From Olegusella massiliensis (lineage in GTDB: Bacteria > Actinomycetota > Coriobacteriia > Coriobacteriales > Atopobiaceae), in assembly GCF_900078545.1 (NCBI RefSeq), contig NZ_FLLS01000002.1, forward strand, positions 124,001 through 188,000: DNA of 64,000 nt, written 5' to 3'. The translations under genes were made by a program, and so were the position numbers. This document shows positions 20,298 through 50,104 of this stretch, one piece after another; positions within the stretch are counted from its first letter, which is position 1, and the number at the start of each line of letters is the position of its first letter. The notes beneath the pieces were generated by a model, which made no database searches, had not been told where the DNA came from, and worked only from the letters and a program-made list of their open reading frames with translations.

Positions 20298-20563
20298 AGC
20301 CACCGCGTTTCATCTCATGCCACTTCAAGGCAGGTGTCAAAAGCCACGTTCTACTTCACTTTTTTAGCCAAAAGCCACGTTTCATTTCACGCGAGAAAAA
20401 TCTACCTGGGCAAACGTCAGGCCCTTTGAAACAGAATGTGGCTTTTGACATTTTTTCTGAAATAGAACGTGGCGTTTGACAAGTAGGACTGGTCTGCTTG
20501 AAATGATCCGTGGCGTTTGGCAAGTAGGACCGGGCTGCTTGAAACAGTTCGTGGCTTTTGGCA
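20298..20563. repeat. Cluster of degenerate direct and inverted repeats
   Basis: This intergenic stretch contains at least six diverged copies of a 22-24 base element with core AAAAGCCACGTT or its complement. Forward copies lie at 20335-20358 and 20368-20389, with a weaker one at 20298-20318. Complementary copies lie at 20428-20450, 20459-20481, 20500-20522 and 20541-20563. The last three form a tandem array with an exact 41-base period, in which AAGTAGGAC and CTGCTT are also repeated. Forward and reverse copies could pair into a long hairpin. No protein-coding gene is credible here, and I see no similar element elsewhere in the window. Confidence 0.8.
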
Positions 20564-20599
20564 GGCTGTGCAAGCAGGCAGAGCTACGTATCCCCACAT

Positions 20600-22131: not shown

Positions 22132-22206
22132 GGGCGTTTAGCTCAGGGGGAGAGCGCTTCCCTGACACGGAAGAGGTCACAAGTTCAAATCTTGTAACGC
22201 CCACCA
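22132..22206 (+). tRNA. tRNA-Val (GAC), integration target
   Basis: 75 bases with encoded CCA. The acceptor GGGCGTT pairs with AACGCCC, the D-arm is GCTC/GAGC, and the anticodon arm is CTTCC-CTGACAC-GGAAG with anticodon GAC. The T-arm is ACAAG-TTCAAAT-CTTGT. From the second anticodon base to the CCA, the sequence is repeated at 24561-24602. That copy has one change which breaks the T-stem, so this upstream copy is the functional gene. Confidence 0.97.
22165..22206 (+). repeat. Left attachment-site repeat (attL) in tRNA-Val
   Basis: 42 bases identical to 24561-24602 except at 22194 (G here, C in the right copy). It runs from the anticodon to the CCA end, the standard crossover segment for tRNA-targeting tyrosine integrases. 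Confidence 0.9.
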
Positions 22207-22215
22207 TAAACGCAG

Positions 22216-22247
22216 GTAGAGACCTCAATTTGAGGTCTCTACTTTTC
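22216..22247 (+). terminator. Terminator after tRNA-Val (inside the element)
   Basis: Perfect 12-bp stem GTAGAGACCTCA / TGAGGTCTCTAC with an ATT loop, followed by TTTTCG. It lies inside the left end of the element and so replaces the terminator at 24612, which ended the tRNA transcript before integration. Confidence 0.88.
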
Positions 22248-22350
22248 GTTTAAAACAGCAAGGTAAGCTCAAAAGTAAGATAAAACTGAAAAGGCGAACT
22301 CATCCCGGAGGCTCCCAAACTCGCGACCCGTATGCACGAGAACGGATGCC

Positions 22351-22372
22351 TCGGCGGGCTAGCGCCCGCCGA
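22351..22372. other. GC-rich perfect hairpin in the left end of the element
   Basis: Arms TCGGCGGGC and GCCCGCCGA around TAGC, with no U-run on either strand. It could be a DNA-processing or protein-binding site of the element, or a leader structure; the sequence does not decide. Confidence 0.5.
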
Positions 22373-22400
22373 GAGTAGAACACGAAAAAACGTGAACCAC

Positions 22401-22427
22401 GTACCGATAGCGGTACTCGAACGGTAC
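22401..22427. other. GGTAC motif cluster, possible integrase arm sites (left)
   Basis: GTACCG at 22401, CGGTAC at 22411 and CGGTAC at 22422; the last two are 11 bases apart, one helical turn. The same GGTAC core recurs at 24461-24513 near the right end. Paired motif groups inside both ends are typical of tyrosine-integrase arm sites. Confidence 0.45.
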
Positions 22428-22595
22428 GCGGGCAAACACGATGATGCGATAAAGTCCCTCCGACGTGCTACGGACGGCACGCCGTGGGGACTTTCAACGT
22501 CCACCGAGAATTAGCTCACAGCTAAGGAAACATGACGGTGCGAGCGAATAGAATGAAAGCCATAGGTATTGCGCCGAGGCAAAAGGAGAGCAGAC

Positions 22596-22817
22596 ATGTC
22601 GGTTATTTATCAAACGAATGAGTGGAAGGGCTACGGTAAGCAGAACTACTACTACAACGAGTATCGTCTTGAAGGCGATACCATTAAGAAGTACAAGTGC
22701 CACCGCTATAAGTTCTTCGACGGAGACGAAAGCAACTGGGGGTATGATGAGAAGCTCGTAGACTCTTGGTCACGCGATGACCCCAACATGCCAGATTGGC
22801 TCAAATCGTATCTGTAA
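22596..22817 (+). CDS. Small uncharacterised element-borne protein (73 aa)
   Basis: A 73-aa acidic, aromatic-rich protein starting at ATG 22596, with AAAGGAG 7 bases upstream. It reads MSVIYQTNEWKGYGKQNYYY at the start and ends DDPNMPDWLKSYL; Tyr, Lys, Asp and Trp dominate and there is no hydrophobic segment. I do not recognise a family. Base composition is closer to the host than to the GC-rich relaxase remnant. It is the only apparently intact gene of the element, so it may be cargo (regulator or excision-type protein), but this is a guess. Confidence 0.6.
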   Translation: MSVIYQTNEWKGYGKQNYYYNEYRLEGDTIKKYKCHRYKFFDGDESNWGYDEKLVDSWSRDDPNMPDWLKSYL

Positions 22818-22877
22818 ACTCACTCGCCGGGATAACCGAGACCTCCCCGAGGCGTGCCATGGATACGCTCAGCGTTC

Positions 22878-23742
22878 TCAGACGCCCGCGATACCGTTGC
22901 TTGGACAATTGACACGGGTCTGAGCATTGCATGCCCTCTGTGCGTCTCTGACGCGGCCACCGAGCGCCATCCACGCGCGACCGATGCCCGACACGATGCC
23001 CGCGAACTTATTGTTGCGTGAGAGGTCGCGGAGAGCCTTTGCGCCGGACGGCCATACCTCGGCCATACCTCGGCCACGACGCCGACGATTGCTATACTGA
23101 CGGCACGCGGGACGGCCTTCGTGTCCGCGTTCACGCCGTTGAAGCCTATGGCGTCAGCGTACTCCTTGGCGGCACGTGTCATTTCGGACGCCTCGACGGC
23201 GGCAGTGTCCGCGTCGGCTTCGCACTGCGCTTTGACGAGCATCGCGGCACGTGAGGCCTCGGCTTCACGCGTCACGTCGGCGGCGGTCTGGCGTGCAGTT
23301 GCCGTCACCGTCGCGGCCTCTGTCTGCGCGTCGCTCACGATCGTTTCGGCGTGTGTCTTCGCGGCGGTCTTGGTCTTCATCGCGTACTCGTCGGCGTCTG
23401 TCTTCACGGCTTCGACTTCGGTATTCTTGGCCTCGACTTCTTGCGCCTTCGCGGTCAGCCTTTGCTCTTCAGCGCGTGCTTCCCGCTTCGCGCGTTCCGT
23501 GCGCGCGTACTCGTTCGCGGAGCGCCCGGACTGCTTCTTCTCGTACGTCCCGTCGTTGACCTTTTCTTGACGCGTCTTGTGCGGTTCCATGTCCCAACCA
23601 CGCGCGCGCATCTCGCGCACGAACACCTTGTGTAACGCGGACTTTCGCGACGCCTTGTTGTATGTCTCACCGACCGCGAGACGGCCATCTTTCGTGAGGC
23701 GCTGAGAGAACAAATGCAAGTGAAAATTGGCGTCGGTCGACC
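22878..23742 (-). pseudogene. Truncated, frameshifted relaxase (Mob_Pre/MobV-like C-terminal part)
   Basis: The minus-strand frame begins abruptly with FHLHLFSQRLTKDGRLAVG, matching the His-x-His region and following segment of plasmid mobilisation (Mob/Pre) relaxases. It continues with ASRKSALHKVFVREMRARG and a long Ala/Glu/Lys coiled coil. The N-terminal catalytic part is absent: just upstream the frame runs into antisense integrase sequence. An 11-bp tandem duplication at 23050-23071 shifts the frame. Removing one copy restores continuity from VVAEVWP to SGAKALRDLSRNNKFAGIV and the stop at 22878. The gene is therefore dead twice over. Confidence 0.7.
23050..23071. repeat. 11-bp tandem duplication causing a frameshift
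   Basis: GGCCATACCTC occurs twice head to tail. Since 11 is not a multiple of 3, it breaks the minus-strand relaxase frame, and the two frames join sensibly if one copy is dropped. Confidence 0.85.
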
Positions 23743-24446
23743 GGTCGGCATCCGGAAACGCCCTTACCGAGGCTGAGTACCGTAAGTGCGTCGAATGGCT
23801 GCTCGCGTGCGCCCCCTCCGACGGATGGCCGTCGAAGAAGCGCGCGTACAGGCCACGACCGGACACAATCTTGAAACGCGCGGTCGCGCTCGACCTAGCC
23901 GCGACGCAGGCCACAACCGGACTGCGCATCGCGGAGGGCTTGGCGCTGGAGAAACGCGACGTGGGGGAGGACGCCGACGGGCGCGTGCTAATCACCGTCC
24001 GACCTGAAGTCTCGAAGACCCACAAGGGGCGTACCATCTACGGCCTCGACCCGAGAGCAGCGGAACGCGTGAAAGACCGCTCAGCGGTGCTCAGCGCCCC
24101 CACAGACCGGGTTTTCAACTCACCCGGCGGCGTCATGGAGCGAGGCGCAGACAGCAAAAAGCGCCGCGTGGCCGTAGTAGGTCGCGAATGGAACCGCGAG
24201 AATGCACAAGCTGCGATGCGCAAGCTCTACGACGAGATGGCGGACGCCTGCGACGTGCCGCTGCTCCATGACGTGAGCACCCACGTATGGCGTGCCACGC
24301 TCAACGTCATGTGGATGGAAGCCAAGGTGCCCGCCGAGATTCGTGCCGCATGGTTTGGCCACACGGAGGCCATCAACGTGAAGGCATACATGGACGTCTC
24401 GGACATTGCGAGCATGGCAAACGTCATCGAAAAAAGTAAGGTCTAA
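23727..24446 (+). pseudogene. Tyrosine integrase, catalytic domain only (N terminus deleted)
   Basis: The frame encodes about 235 aa, beginning at LTEAEYRKCVEWLLACAP, the normal start of the catalytic domain. The active site is complete: Arg in TTGLRIAEGLAL, Lys in SKTHKGRTIYG, His-x-x-Arg in STHVWRATLN, His in WFGHTEAIN and the nucleophile Tyr in NVKAYMDV. The arm-binding and core-binding domains (about 150-170 residues) are missing; upstream bases are antisense relaxase. A TTG at 23727 could start it but has no convincing ribosome-binding site. It ends about 115 bp before attR, the usual position and orientation for the integrase of a tRNA-targeting element. Confidence 0.8.
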
Positions 24447-24460
24447 AACAGGTTCACGTA

Positions 24461-24514
24461 GGTACAACGAAGGTACACAGAAGTACACCAAAACGATAAA
24501 ACAGCGAGGTACCC
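24461..24514. other. GGTAC(A) motif cluster, possible integrase arm sites (right)
   Basis: GGTACA at 24461, GGTACA at 24472, AGTACA at 24482 and GGTACC at 24509 lie between the integrase stop and attR. The first three are spaced 11 and 10 bases, one helical turn. They match the GGTAC cluster at the left end. Confidence 0.5.
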
Positions 24515-24560
24515 ATATGTACGCATAGGGTATACGCAGGGTTAACAGAATCATCGTAAA

Positions 24561-24602
24561 ACACGGAAGAGGTCACAAGTTCAAATCTTCTAACGCCCAC
24601 CA
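24561..24602 (+). repeat. Right attachment-site repeat (attR)
   Basis: 42 bases equal to the tRNA-Val 3' half with a single G-to-C change at 24590 that disrupts the T-stem. No 5' half of a tRNA precedes it, so it is an attachment-site remnant and not a second gene. Confidence 0.9.
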
Positions 24603-24645: not shown

Positions 24646-24902
24646 TTTTGGATAGCACCTCCTACTGATGGATGGCGAACATTTTTTGCGTATATAACTT
24701 CATGCTCAATGAGGCGCCTCGCTCTGAACTTGCTTCGTGACCATGTCAAATCCTGCGATTTGGTAGGTACTATGCAGAGTTTCTTATTTCTCCCTTTACA
24801 TACTCTTAAATGACTGAATTTATATAGCAGAATAAGTTAGGCAAGGCTATCCTTATGCGGATTTCTTTGAACGCAGGCTAACGCCGTTGGAGGATGAAAA
24901 GT
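24646..24902. other. Intergenic region upstream of the split LTA-synthase pair
   Basis: AT-rich, no gene. It contains a perfect 6-bp inverted repeat CAAATC-CTGC-GATTTG at 24747-24762 and a TATATA near 24822 that may be part of a promoter, but no -35 with acceptable spacing is evident. A GGAGG at 24889-24893 serves the next gene. Confidence 0.45.
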
Positions 24903-25916
24903 ATGTTCTTGATATTTTTCTCTGGCTTATTGGTTGTAGGGCTGGTAATAGCTCTTGCTCAGTTTGTCCCACAAAAGCTCTTTCACTTTTTACCCCAACT
25001 GAATCGAATTTCGTGGATATGGACGGGTATTTTTCTTGCATTACTTCTTTTTTTGAGCGTATATGCAGGTTTTGGACTCATTCAAACCCACTGGTTGCCA
25101 GCCATCTTATGCACGAGTGTGCTTGCAATAGCTGCCATCGTTTCGCTTTATAACAAGCAAATCCGCGCAGCATTCAACACTCTTTTTGCTTACCAGCGTT
25201 TGCTGTTAGAAATTGGACTGCTGCTTATTGGAACTTTTTTGACTTTCATAGCTATTGAATTGCCTTCTAATCCAGCTATCGCCGGATTTTGGATAGAGGG
25301 TCTTATTCTCGAAAATGTCATTATTCTCGTTATATTTCTGATATTTCATCTCCTCTTTCAACGCAGTGGTGCAGGAGCTGTCATTGCAGCTTTTCTTTTT
25401 GAATGTGCCGGCCTTGCAGAATATTTTGTAGTGTCGTTTAAAGGTGTGCCCATCATTGCGAGCGACATACTTGCACTCGGCACGGCAGCTACGGTAAGTG
25501 GCAGCTATAGCTATGTTCTCAATGAGAGAGTACTCATTTCATTTGCCGTATTCGCGCTAGCTCTAGTTGTACTTTCTCTAACACCAAAGCCACAACATGC
25601 AAAAAGGCCTGCCATTGCGTTTGTAGCCAACACTTTTGGCGGACTCATCATGGCTGGTATAGCCGTCTTTATTGCAACAACAGTAAGTTTTTCAGAATTT
25701 CCTGGTATCAAATACAACGCTTGGATTCCGCTCGACAGCTACCATCGTGAAGGCTTTATTTCATCGTTTGTCACGCAAATTCAGTCTTTCCGTCCCGTTC
25801 AGCCCAAAGGTTATTCCAAAGAAGAAGCCGAAAAACTTCTTTCAGGCTACGCTAACAAATACGAAGAAAATCTCGCTCATGCAGACTCTTCATCCTCAAG
25901 CAACACCAACTCCTAA
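24903..25916 (+). CDS. LTA-synthase-like protein, membrane domain only (split half 1)
   Basis: A 337-aa protein with about eight hydrophobic helices. It matches the first 310 or so residues of the fused 713-aa paralog at 47963 block by block. Examples are FIAIELPSNPAIAGFWIEGL against FVCIELPSNPRIDSFWIEGM, and VVLSLTPKPQHAKRPA against LMLSLTPKPKHTKKLA. It ends just after the shared KGYSKEEAEKLLSGY segment with a tail SSSSSNTNS that the paralog lacks. No catalytic residue is present. The catalytic part is the next gene, 112 bp downstream. ATG 24903 (GGAGG 9 bases upstream, protein start MFLIFF like the paralog's MFAIEF) is preferred over ATG 24894, which abuts the ribosome-binding site. Confidence 0.85.
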   Translation: MFLIFFSGLLVVGLVIALAQFVPQKLFHFLPQLNRISWIWTGIFLALLLFLSVYAGFGLIQTHWLPAILCTSVLAIAAIVSLYNKQIRAAFNTLFAYQRLLLEIGLLLIGTFLTFIAIELPSNPAIAGFWIEGLILENVIILVIFLIFHLLFQRSGAGAVIAAFLFECAGLAEYFVVSFKGVPIIASDILALGTAATVSGSYSYVLNERVLISFAVFALALVVLSLTPKPQHAKRPAIAFVANTFGGLIMAGIAVFIATTVSFSEFPGIKYNAWIPLDSYHREGFISSFVTQIQSFRPVQPKGYSKEEAEKLLSGYANKYEENLAHADSSSSSNTNS

Positions 25917-26028
25917 CTCTTTGCTCGAGGCTGAATAACCCGCTATATGGCTCAGGGTTCTGTGTTTTCGCACTTCTGTAATTGTTCGCATGTTTTCGAT
26001 TGCCAGCTACATCTCAAGGGGCATTTTC

Positions 26029-27417
26029 ATGAAAGAATTTATCCACACCAATATTTCTCGTCGTACTTTTATTTCAGCAGTCGGAACTGCTGGTATGTTA
26101 GCTACCCTCAACGCATGTGGCGCAGGTGGAATCAAAAAAACTGCCGCCGCCATCACAGCCGAGCAGAAAAGCTCGAGCAAAAACGCCACAATTTCACCCG
26201 ATTCCTCAGCTTCGTATGCCGAGCAGTACGCCCATATTTTTGGCAACACGCAGGCAAGAAAAGCCGCAGAAAAGCAATTTGACGAACTCAAACCCAGCGT
26301 GGTCGTCGTTATGAATGAGTCCTTCTCCGATCTGTCATTGTTCAATGAGTTGGATGGGAGCTATAAAGGCCCCGAGTGGTTTAATTCATTCGAAGGTGGT
26401 CTTGCAAAAGGAAAGCTCTACGTCTCCCCTTATGGTGGCGGCACTTGCAACAGTGAGTGGGAAATGCTCACGGGCTGCTCGATGGCATTTATGGGATCGG
26501 GCGTCTATCCCTATATGGTCTATGACATGTCTCGCGTCGACAATCTTGCCCGCCAACTCAAATCCATTGGATATAAAGCAAATGCCATGCATCCCAATCT
26601 AGCGACCAATTGGAATCGTCATATTGTCTATCCTGCCTTTGGTTATGATCAATTCCTTTCTGAACCTGATTTTGGTGCCGCGCAACGCTATCGCAATCTC
26701 ATCAGCGACGCCGCTACCTATGACAAAATTCTTGAGCTACTCGACGCCGATGAGGCACCACAGACGATTTTAGATATCACCATGCAAAATCATGGCGGAT
26801 ACAAAACCAACGCGCTGCCAGCAAATCTCGTTAAGCACCACACAATTAAAGGCGTTGATCATCCAGATCTCGATGAGTATTTATCACTGATGGATATCTC
26901 TGACAAAGCTTTGCAAGAGTTCATAGATAAGCTTTCTAAACTCAAGCGCCCTGTGGTATTGCTGCTTTTTGGAGACCATCAGCCAGCTCTTGCAGCGCCT
27001 TACAATGATGCGCTTGTGACCAACGATTCCAGTGAGCTTGTCCACCAACAGCGTGCTCATACCACCAGCTATCTGATGTATGCTAACTACGACGTTGCGG
27101 GCGCCAAGACAGGAACAATACTCGATACCAGCACAAACTTCCTCATTGCTAATCTTGCACAACTCATTGGAATGCCCTTGAGTGATTTTCAAAAAGCCCA
27201 ATTAGTCATGCAGCATCAAGGTATGTATGCAATAAATATGCTGGGCTTCCAAGATAGCACGGGCAGTTGGCACGATATCAAAGACAATAAGGAAGGCGAT
27301 ACTGCTCAGCTATGCCAAGACTTGCAAACCTTACAATACCTGGAGCTCTTTGGTGATGGCGTACATTATCAAGTAGGCAGCGGAAAGACAGGGACAATTA
27401 CAGGCCGCCTGCAATAG
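26029..27417 (+). CDS. LTA-synthase-like catalytic domain as a Tat-type lipoprotein (split half 2)
   Basis: A 462-aa protein equal to the C-terminal catalytic domain of the fused paralog at 47963, but with its own signal. The signal has a twin-arginine start SRRTFIS, a hydrophobic core and a lipobox TLNAC (Cys about residue 26). Alkaline-phosphatase-fold residues are conserved: Glu in MNESFSDLS, nucleophile Thr in GGGTCNSEWE, His in MQNHGGY and the metal site FGDHQPAL. LtaS-like enzymes transfer phosphoglycerol or related groups to envelope polymers outside the membrane. ATG 26029 has AAGGGGC 6 bases upstream; an in-frame ATG at 25990 would spoil the signal. It is probably co-expressed with the membrane half. 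Confidence 0.85.
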   Translation: MKEFIHTNISRRTFISAVGTAGMLATLNACGAGGIKKTAAAITAEQKSSSKNATISPDSSASYAEQYAHIFGNTQARKAAEKQFDELKPSVVVVMNESFSDLSLFNELDGSYKGPEWFNSFEGGLAKGKLYVSPYGGGTCNSEWEMLTGCSMAFMGSGVYPYMVYDMSRVDNLARQLKSIGYKANAMHPNLATNWNRHIVYPAFGYDQFLSEPDFGAAQRYRNLISDAATYDKILELLDADEAPQTILDITMQNHGGYKTNALPANLVKHHTIKGVDHPDLDEYLSLMDISDKALQEFIDKLSKLKRPVVLLLFGDHQPALAAPYNDALVTNDSSELVHQQRAHTTSYLMYANYDVAGAKTGTILDTSTNFLIANLAQLIGMPLSDFQKAQLVMQHQGMYAINMLGFQDSTGSWHDIKDNKEGDTAQLCQDLQTLQYLELFGDGVHYQVGSGKTGTITGRLQ

Positions 27418-27451
27418 TCTGCTTGAGAAGACAGCTTTTAAACACCGCGAG

Positions 27452-27661
27452 ATGAACAAAGCAATATGGCATGAGAAACGTATTACAATCAATCAGGGTA
27501 TGGCCGACAGTGATGTTGACAAGTTTGAACGCTGAGGACGTCCAGGCCGTGCAGCAGCTGACCTGCAGGAAGTAAATCTCGATACCGCTGATGACAGCTA
27601 CGAGTCTCTTGCGGAATGGCGTGCGAAGAAGTATGACCAACTTATGACCGCTGAGAAGTAA
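27452..27661 (+). pseudogene. 70-codon ORF interrupted by one TGA, upstream of metK
   Basis: A frame from ATG 27452 to TAA 27659-27661 has a single internal TGA at 27533. Both sides read like real protein: MNKAIWHEKRITINQGMADS before it, and DTADDSYESLAEWRAKKYDQ then LMTAEK after it. I do not recognise the family. The simplest explanation is a small decayed gene. Selenocysteine or stop-codon readthrough is possible in principle, but no SECIS-like hairpin is evident. It lies between the split LTA-synthase pair and metK, and its end merges with the metK leader. Confidence 0.4.
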
Positions 27662-47962: not shown

Positions 47963-50104
47963 ATGTTTGCTATTGAGTTTGTTTTTCTCTGTCTTGTGAT
48001 AGCAGCTTATGTACTTGTGCCGCGCAAATTCAAGAAAGACGATATGAGACCTGCTGATTGGGGTTGGAGCATTGTCTTTACTCTTCTTCTTATAGGTATT
48101 GGCATCTACGATATAGCAGGGCTTGTGAACGCAGGTTTGCTGGAGCGCGTTGCTCTTAGCGCTGCATTAACAACTGGCTCGATTGTGTCGCTTTGGCACA
48201 ACAACATCCGCAATAAACTTTCTGAGCTTCACAAACCTGCACCTCAAATTCTTGAGGCACTCATGTTGCTGTTAGGCGCTTATCTCACATTTGTGTGCAT
48301 TGAGCTGCCTTCAAACCCACGTATTGACAGTTTCTGGATTGAAGGCATGATTCTTGAGATTGCTATCATTTTGCTTGTGATGGTAGCGCTCCATTTTTTG
48401 ACTCAGCGTTCTGGTGTTGGTGCCACAATCGCCGCTCTTATTTTTGAGCTCGCTGGTATTGCCGAATTCTTTGTGGTTACCTTCAAAAACACCCCTATCA
48501 TGGCAGGCGATATCTTGGCATTGGGTACTGCTGCAGCTGTCGGTGGTGGCTATACCTACGCTATCAATGGCAAGGTTTTGCTCTCTGTGGCTTTGCTTGC
48601 TTTGGTAATCTTGATGCTGTCACTCACTCCCAAACCCAAGCACACAAAAAAGCTTGCAGCCGTCGGTGCAAACTTATTGGTTAGCGCTGCCACTTGCCTC
48701 GTACTTGGTCTGGGTTGCACGCAAATTAGCTTTGGAAATACTTTTAATATTGTCTATAACGCTTGGATTCCTCTAGAAAGCTACTGGCGGGAGGGCTTTA
48801 TAAGCTCCTTTTTAACCCAGCTTCAATCTTTCAATCCCGAAAAGCCCAAAGGCTACTCCAACGAATCTGCCGAAAAGCTCTTTGCTAACTATGTTGCCCA
48901 GTATGACGCTACTCTGGGCGCTACCGCCGAGCACAAAGCCGCGGTCAAGCAGTTCAATGAGGAGAAGCCCTCTGTTATCTGTATCATGAATGAGTCTTAT
49001 TCTGATTTATCCCGCTATGCAAATCTGGGCGGCGCATACAACGGGCCTGAATGGTTCAAAAACTATCAGGGTGCACTCGCCAAGGGCGCTCTCTACGTTG
49101 CACCTTACGGTGGAGGTACCTGCAACTCTGAGTGGGAGTTGATGACAAGCTGCTCGATGGCATTTATGGGTTCTGGTGTCTATCCCTACATGGTCTATAA
49201 CATGGAGGGTGTACCTAACATGGCCGCCAGCTTCAAAAAACTGGGGTATGACACCATTGCGATGCATCCTAACCTTGCCACTAACTGGGGACGCGATGTG
49301 GTCTACCCTACCTTTGGCTTTGATCGTTTCCTTGATATCAACGACTTTACTGGCGCTGATCGCCTACGCAACATGGTTACCGATGAGGCAACTTACGACA
49401 AGATTTATGAGAGTCTTACGACCAGCAAAAACCCGCAGTTCTTCCTCAATGTCACTATGCAAAATCACGGCGGTTATGAGACAGGCGCTCTGCCTACAGA
49501 TATGGTCAAGCACTACCGCGTACATGGTATTAATAACCCTGCTTTGGATGAGTATCTGGCTCTTATCGATGAGTCGGACCGTGCAATGGAGAAGTTCTTA
49601 GAGCAACTCTCCAAGCTTGATCGCAAGGTTGTGGTGGTCTTTTTTGGTGACCATCAGCCTTCCATTGCAAATGAGTACAACAAACTCATCACCGATGATC
49701 CATCCGATTTGGTGCATCAGGAGCGTGAACGCACTACTGAATACATGATTTGGGCTAACTATGATGTTGCTGGTTCAAAGAAAAACCAGCAGCTCGATAC
49801 CAGTACCAACTTCCTTGCAGCCGATATGCTGCAGCTCATCGGTGGTCCGCTCACCGACCTCAACAAAGCTGAGCTGGTTATGCGCCATAGCGACATGCCT
49901 GTTCTTAACCTCTTGGGCTACCAAGATAAGTCAGGCACGTGGAATGATATCAGCACGAAAGCCGCGCAAAAGGCAGGCACGCCCGCTGCCCGACTACGTC
50001 TTGATCTACAGACCCTGCAATATAAGCAGCTTTTTGGCGACGGCGTCAAATTCCGCACGGGCGCTGGGCACGAAGGGACTGTCTGGGGACGTATTGGTGG
50101 TTAA
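47963..50104 (+). CDS. LTA-synthase-like membrane phosphotransferase (intact fused form)
   Basis: A 713-aa protein with about eight N-terminal membrane helices (1-270), a linker around KGYSNESAEKLFANYVAQ, and an extracellular alkaline-phosphatase-fold domain (about 335-713). Catalytic residues are Glu in MNESYSDLS, nucleophile Thr in GGGTCNSEWELM, His in MQNHGGYE and the metal site FGDHQPSIA. This is the LtaS/MdoB-type architecture used to transfer phosphoglycerol or similar groups to envelope glycans or lipids. The split pair at 24903-27417 matches it end to end. The start has only a weak ribosome-binding site (GAAAG); the hydrophobic helix begins at residue 1, which supports it. Confidence 0.88.
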   Translation: MFAIEFVFLCLVIAAYVLVPRKFKKDDMRPADWGWSIVFTLLLIGIGIYDIAGLVNAGLLERVALSAALTTGSIVSLWHNNIRNKLSELHKPAPQILEALMLLLGAYLTFVCIELPSNPRIDSFWIEGMILEIAIILLVMVALHFLTQRSGVGATIAALIFELAGIAEFFVVTFKNTPIMAGDILALGTAAAVGGGYTYAINGKVLLSVALLALVILMLSLTPKPKHTKKLAAVGANLLVSAATCLVLGLGCTQISFGNTFNIVYNAWIPLESYWREGFISSFLTQLQSFNPEKPKGYSNESAEKLFANYVAQYDATLGATAEHKAAVKQFNEEKPSVICIMNESYSDLSRYANLGGAYNGPEWFKNYQGALAKGALYVAPYGGGTCNSEWELMTSCSMAFMGSGVYPYMVYNMEGVPNMAASFKKLGYDTIAMHPNLATNWGRDVVYPTFGFDRFLDINDFTGADRLRNMVTDEATYDKIYESLTTSKNPQFFLNVTMQNHGGYETGALPTDMVKHYRVHGINNPALDEYLALIDESDRAMEKFLEQLSKLDRKVVVVFFGDHQPSIANEYNKLITDDPSDLVHQERERTTEYMIWANYDVAGSKKNQQLDTSTNFLAADMLQLIGGPLTDLNKAELVMRHSDMPVLNLLGYQDKSGTWNDISTKAAQKAGTPAARLRLDLQTLQYKQLFGDGVKFRTGAGHEGTVWGRIGG

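Follow-up and report, generated by a model that had tools for sequence, protein, structure and literature searches.

Introduction

Can an enzyme of the GacH/LtaS type be encoded as two separate proteins and still act as one? This question is raised by two consecutive genes of Olegusella massiliensis, located in a stretch of 64,000 nucleotides that was analysed as a whole (hereafter, the window), which encode a membrane protein and a putative catalytic lipoprotein. To our knowledge, the known GacH/LtaS-type glycerol-phosphate (GroP) transferases are made as one chain. GacH and SccH are the streptococcal GroP transferases for rhamnopolysaccharide side chains, LtaS is the lipoteichoic acid synthase, cleavage of which releases eLtaS, and LtaP is the primase. 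LtaS/GacH-type enzymes need the full-length protein in vivo, and what their membrane domain contributes is a question that a natural split pair may help to answer. In GacH, the membrane domain occupies amino acids 1-395 and is followed by the extracellular catalytic domain (PMC12282279). The same-chain N-terminal membrane domain, a feature of such transferases, is here the product of a separate gene in two species. What is new is a naturally split, putative transferase of the GacH/LtaS superfamily, known so far from these two species, and no natural split or Tat-exported LTA synthase was found in the literature searched.

The split pair and its fused paralogs

Table 1. Features of the split pair and of the fused paralog (window coordinates)
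Feature	Position	Strand	Description
Upstream region	24683..24893	+	conserved with oral taxon 810: 84% across 239 nt that extend into the membrane-half gene
Ribosome-binding site of the membrane-half gene	24889-24893	+	GGAGG
Membrane half	24903..25916	+	337 aa; 8 transmembrane helices, 2 further short helices, linker helix, Ser/Asn C-terminal tail
Spacer between the halves	25917..26028	+	112 nt
Predicted Tat-type signal with lipobox	26029..26118	+	MKEFIHTNISRRTFISAVGTAGMLATLNAC; Cys = residue 30
Catalytic half	26029..27417	+	462 aa; alkaline-phosphatase/GacH/LtaS fold; E97, T139 (nucleophile), H255, D316, H317
Fused paralog	47963..50104	+	713 aa; syntenic in four other genomes of the genus

The first-pass annotation had described an intact fused protein in the same genome that matches the two genes almost end to end, and local alignments bore this out: the membrane half aligns with fused residues 1-318 (153 identities, 48%) and the catalytic half with residues 308-712 (233 identities, 58%). 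The Ser/Asn tail that it reported on the first product is also there. A third, more distant fused paralog (C2:1311712-1313781; L079 7695-9851, minus strand), with orthologues in the genus, had been missed, and these three are the only Sulfatase-family proteins of the genome. Homologous genes also lie close together in several Atopobiaceae genomes.

The break was correctly placed in the linker region, but it is not a clean cut, as both halves carry linker sequence matching the same approximately 11 fused residues, on which the local alignments overlap. In the structural models, this sequence corresponds to a helix at residues 309-335 in the membrane half and to another at residues 59-72 in the catalytic half. 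As the two products both retain linker and the route of export seems to have changed, the pair is more than the genome-encoded counterpart of a cleaved enzyme, and that part of the earlier interpretation is abandoned. The pair may instead go back to a duplication after which each copy lost the part that the other kept; the linker overlap would suit such an origin.

Two independent genes conserved in a second species

The same two genes are found at the same locus in Atopobium sp. oral taxon 810 str. F0209 (NZ_KE952949), with amino acid identities of 89% for the membrane half and 91% for the catalytic half. Between the two species, neither gene has a single indel at approximately 10-12% nucleotide divergence. 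Substitutions are distributed over the three codon positions as 25/14/65 in the membrane half (p 9e-10) and 33/15/120 in the catalytic half (p 4e-25), which rules out a pseudogene. The dN/dS values are approximately 0.18-0.25 for the membrane half, 0.08-0.14 for the catalytic half and 0.08-0.12 for the fused paralog; the membrane half thus evolves faster than its neighbour. As judged from these substitution patterns, both halves are conserved in the two species and under purifying selection.

The start of the membrane half was assigned to 24903, 10 nt downstream of GGAGG, since the alternative at 24894 (340 aa) has no ATG in oral taxon 810. Similarly, a longer ATG for the catalytic half at 25990 is not conserved and is replaced by a stop in oral taxon 810, which leaves 26029 as the start. 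The last approximately 35 nt of the spacer, including AAGGGG (26016-26021), are conserved and correspond to the ribosome-binding site of the second gene, and the rest of the spacer contains indels relative to oral taxon 810. From start to start, the two genes lie 1135 nt apart in one species and 1143 nt apart in the other, which gives a different relative frame in each. Together, the conserved starts, the indel-bearing spacer and the variable start distance indicate that the two genes are translated independently. As no match to a terminator or promoter was detected in the spacer between these adjacent genes of the same strand, their co-transcription is likely.

These comparisons bear on the suspicion that the pair is a decaying duplicate or that the break is a sequencing or assembly error. 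Its position between a mobile element and gene remnants might suggest decay, and in a few relatives the copy is indeed truncated or interrupted by a nonsense codon (e.g., G041 and G059). However, the same split in a second species, with its divergence, its lack of indels and its strong third-position bias, excludes a sequencing error or frameshift, which the earlier annotation had named as the observation that could undo its claim. Because the relative frame differs between the species, no single correction fuses the two genes, and a programmed frameshift or readthrough joining them is ruled out as well. In addition, separate starts and ribosome-binding sites serve the two genes, and the second opens with a signal that is absent from the fused form. 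We therefore regard decay or error as extremely improbable.

Fold and active site of the catalytic half

The catalytic half matches the Pfam Sulfatase family (3e-32), and its model has pLDDT >90 over most of residues 60-440. By sequence, its nearest solved relative is GacH (3e-22), ahead of LtaP (6e-8) and LtaS (8e-8); by fold, the nearest match is again GacH, in the structure with sn-glycerol-1-phosphate (E 2e-20), with LtaP and LtaS at approximately 1e-12 to 1e-16. Residues E97, T139, E143, H188, R197, H255, D316 and H317 have identical counterparts in GacH and do not vary among 66 homologues, in agreement with the earlier observation that all catalytic residues are kept. F246, which at least 90% of the homologues conserve, is Thr in both split forms.

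The initial label of an LTA-synthase-like enzyme holds at the superfamily level, where LtaS and LtaP share the fold and the catalytic set, but GacH is closer in both sequence (3e-22 versus approximately 1e-7) and fold. Identity as an LTA synthase itself is not supported: against the NCBIfam LtaS model NF053595, which has a cut-off of 970 bits, the catalytic half scores 46.8 bits and the fused paralog 52.3 bits, and the number of membrane helices also differs from that of LtaS. Resemblance to GacH/SccH likewise has its limits, as GacH is one chain, the pair consists of two genes with a Tat-type lipoprotein-like signal on the second, and no polysaccharide operon is evident around it. Nevertheless, the active site and the modelled fold provide good support for the view that the pair would work like a GroP transferase of the GacH/LtaS type.

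Predicted export and anchoring

The N-terminus of the catalytic half carries the motif SRRTFIS in the window and SRRSFIS in oral taxon 810, within a signal that has a 22-residue uncharged run. Tat substrates are expected to show an S/T-R-R-x-F-h motif and a weak uncharged hydrophobic stretch, in a genome with Tat genes; the signal fits these rules, although the protein falls below the cut-off of the NCBIfam Tat models. The lipobox of oral taxon 810, LSAC, fits a PROSITE-like pattern, whereas that of the window, LNAC, deviates by Asn at position -2. Genes for TatC and Lgt are encoded in the window genome. The SRRTFIS motif and TLNAC lipobox described earlier are thus present, and a Tat-type lipoprotein-like signal is supported; we infer from it that the catalytic half is exported by Tat, and it is probably lipid-anchored. 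Derivation of the Tat motif from an HREGFISS segment was considered as an idea and not adopted.

The membrane half

Hydropathy and the structural model agree on 8 membrane helices in the membrane half. LtaS-type enzymes have five (PMC4192460). All 20 residues that are at least 90% conserved in fused homologues are kept (20/20), some of them located after the last membrane helix, which indicates that the old constraint on this domain persists. No solved structure related to the membrane half was found by sequence or by fold.

Origin and distribution

The separate trees of the two domains that had been proposed as a check were built from 376 columns (catalytic) and 327 columns (membrane). In both, the split halves fall in one starred 7-row clade with the fused enzymes of the genus (100/99 and 98/95), and the g6 enzymes branch beside it; the branching order within the genus clade is unresolved in both trees. 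This agreement excludes unrelated origins of the halves, the second outcome that could have overturned the original proposal, and places both as descendants of the same fused ancestor. The Tat signal, which is without a counterpart in the fused enzymes, might suggest that the catalytic half came from another source and settled next to an unrelated membrane protein, but the shared genus clade and the shared g6 neighbours make such an acquisition barely credible.

Four further genomes of the genus (G031-G034) have the fused gene of 47963 in the same surroundings, namely a metal-dependent phospholipase-like ORF, an mntP-like gene and DNA ligase, and, where the sequence extends far enough, glutamine synthetase on the opposite side. 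This synteny indicates that the fused gene represents the ancestral one-chain form and that the split pair is the derived extra copy.

A search of Coriobacteriia for both forms, also suggested at the outset, revealed that the fused form is widespread: 94 of 140 genomes of the family and 181 of 398 genomes of the class were positive, with lower-scoring genomes checked separately. No other organised split was observed among the matches listed from the 181 positive genomes; among these matches, the remaining members are one chain without a second signal, bar copies that are truncated, nonsense or at contig ends. Other apparent splits were rejected as short frames at contig ends (G033, G049, G068 and G101), a truncated copy (G041), copies with an in-frame stop (G059 and G094) or a broken copy (G089); G405 (483 aa), with a frame that starts approximately 330 nt from a contig end, was left out of inspection. 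All 26 clostridial loci (26/26) are fused. Within the surveyed genomes, the organised split is so far known only from the two Atopobium species.

As a separate observation, the fused homologue of G059 (L068 3491-5656, minus strand, on one contig) contains one in-frame TGA at a position that is Trp in relatives. This TGA falls between the membrane and catalytic parts and no second signal follows; the gene is probably a nonsense copy.

A candidate two-subunit transferase

The reading that we favour, with some confidence though well short of certainty, is that the two halves come together again, on the outer side of the membrane, into a GroP transferase of two subunits. In this model, duplication of the one-chain enzyme followed by gene fission would have occurred in the Atopobium lineage. 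The membrane half would be inserted via the Sec/SRP route, and the catalytic half would leave the cytoplasm through Tat, probably with its fold complete and its metal bound, and be anchored by lipid at Cys30, after which the two parts would re-form one enzyme. Thr139 would take the GroP head group from phosphatidylglycerol, the presumed donor by analogy with GacH, SccH, LtaS and OpgB, and pass it to an envelope glycan or glycolipid, and the membrane half may give substrate access and positioning through its conserved membrane-proximal helices and linker.

Several lines of evidence argue for the two-subunit enzyme: the split at the same locus in a second species, with no indels, a codon-position bias in the substitutions and the kept residues; the GacH-like active site and fold, the agreeing trees and the genes for TatC and Lgt; and the adjacency on one strand with no terminator match, the pair being intact amid remnants. 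The atypical -2 position of the lipobox in the window species and the change of F246 to Thr in both split forms count against it. In Staphylococcus aureus LtaS, which is also parted into membrane and extracellular portions, but by signal peptidase, expression of the two domains from two plasmids reportedly restores no activity (PMC10865820, citing Wormann 2011), and domain swaps of LtaS fail (PMC4192460). Function of the two domains in trans, as first suggested, is plausible, but both results speak against its being easy, and such reported failures of engineered constructs are what make a natural pair informative.

The main rival holds that the catalytic lipoprotein is self-sufficient and serves as a tethered GroP transferase or hydrolase with soluble or wall-bound acceptors, and that the membrane half has a role of its own, e.g., in lipid handling. 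A precedent is offered by Escherichia coli OpgB/MdoB (phosphoglycerol transferases I and II), where one gene yields a functional free catalytic form beside the membrane-bound form, and the released soluble phosphoglycerol transferase II moves phosphoglycerol between glucans (PMC3818809). The confident, self-contained domain model of the catalytic half and the faster evolution of the membrane half point in the same direction. The free form of OpgB is, however, a released, soluble catalytic domain for which no separate membrane subunit has been proposed. Moreover, if the membrane half had been freed for another role, relaxation of its residues, linker helix and adjacency would be expected, but it retains all near-invariant residues of the fused family together with the linker helix, and the two genes are adjacent in both species. 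A stand-alone lipoprotein thus appears unlikely, although it deserves to be taken seriously. More doubtful still is a role of the catalytic half as partner or regulator of the intact fused paralogs in place of its neighbour; such paralogs exist in both split-bearing genomes and the halves are homologous to them, but selection on the adjacent membrane half would be left unexplained.

A stronger form of the two-subunit model, which we put forward only tentatively and at somewhat less than even chances, is that the enzyme has come to depend on both proteins. Its catalytic domain would have given up Sec insertion as part of a polytopic chain for Tat export in the folded state, with a lipid anchor, and would meet the membrane domain in trans. 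If true, the pair would stand as a natural exception to the failure reported for engineered LtaS splits, and its acceptor might be new. As both halves are under selection, the natural pair provides subunits that can be separately cloned or deleted, so that the contribution of each is testable without engineered breaks, and the genome comes with an internal control, the syntenic one-chain paralog. In addition, the pair is a case where a domain seems to have changed its export route in evolution.

Genomic surroundings

The two genomes share a block of tRNA-Leu, alcohol dehydrogenase and tRNA-Val, beyond which the pair is located. A DUF4143-type ATPase gene is intact upstream in oral taxon 810 and survives in the window as a 3' remnant (from 24683). 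On the other side, approximately 16 kb of other genes separate the pair from metK in oral taxon 810, the last being a radical-SAM gene that is intact next to metK (L142 2657-4201). A remnant of a radical-SAM 3' end with one internal stop lies between the pair and metK in the window (about 27445-27660). Given the full gene beside metK, the 16 kb are either missing in the window or inserted in oral taxon 810. The pair is intact in both species, and the window neighbours on both sides are rearranged and survive only as remnants.

Beside tRNA-Val (22132-22206), an integrated element at 22207-24602 has a GC content of 59%, compared with 49.5% for the window. It contains a tyrosine-recombinase-like ORF (23727-24446) and a copy of the 3' end of tRNA-Val (24562-24602); a similar tRNA-end copy lies beside the same tRNA-Val in oral taxon 810. 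After tRNA-Leu, at 20335-20580, imperfect direct (41-nt period) and inverted repeats of approximately 24 nt are arranged around 'AAAGCCACGTT', and this repeat cluster is also found at the same place in oral taxon 810.
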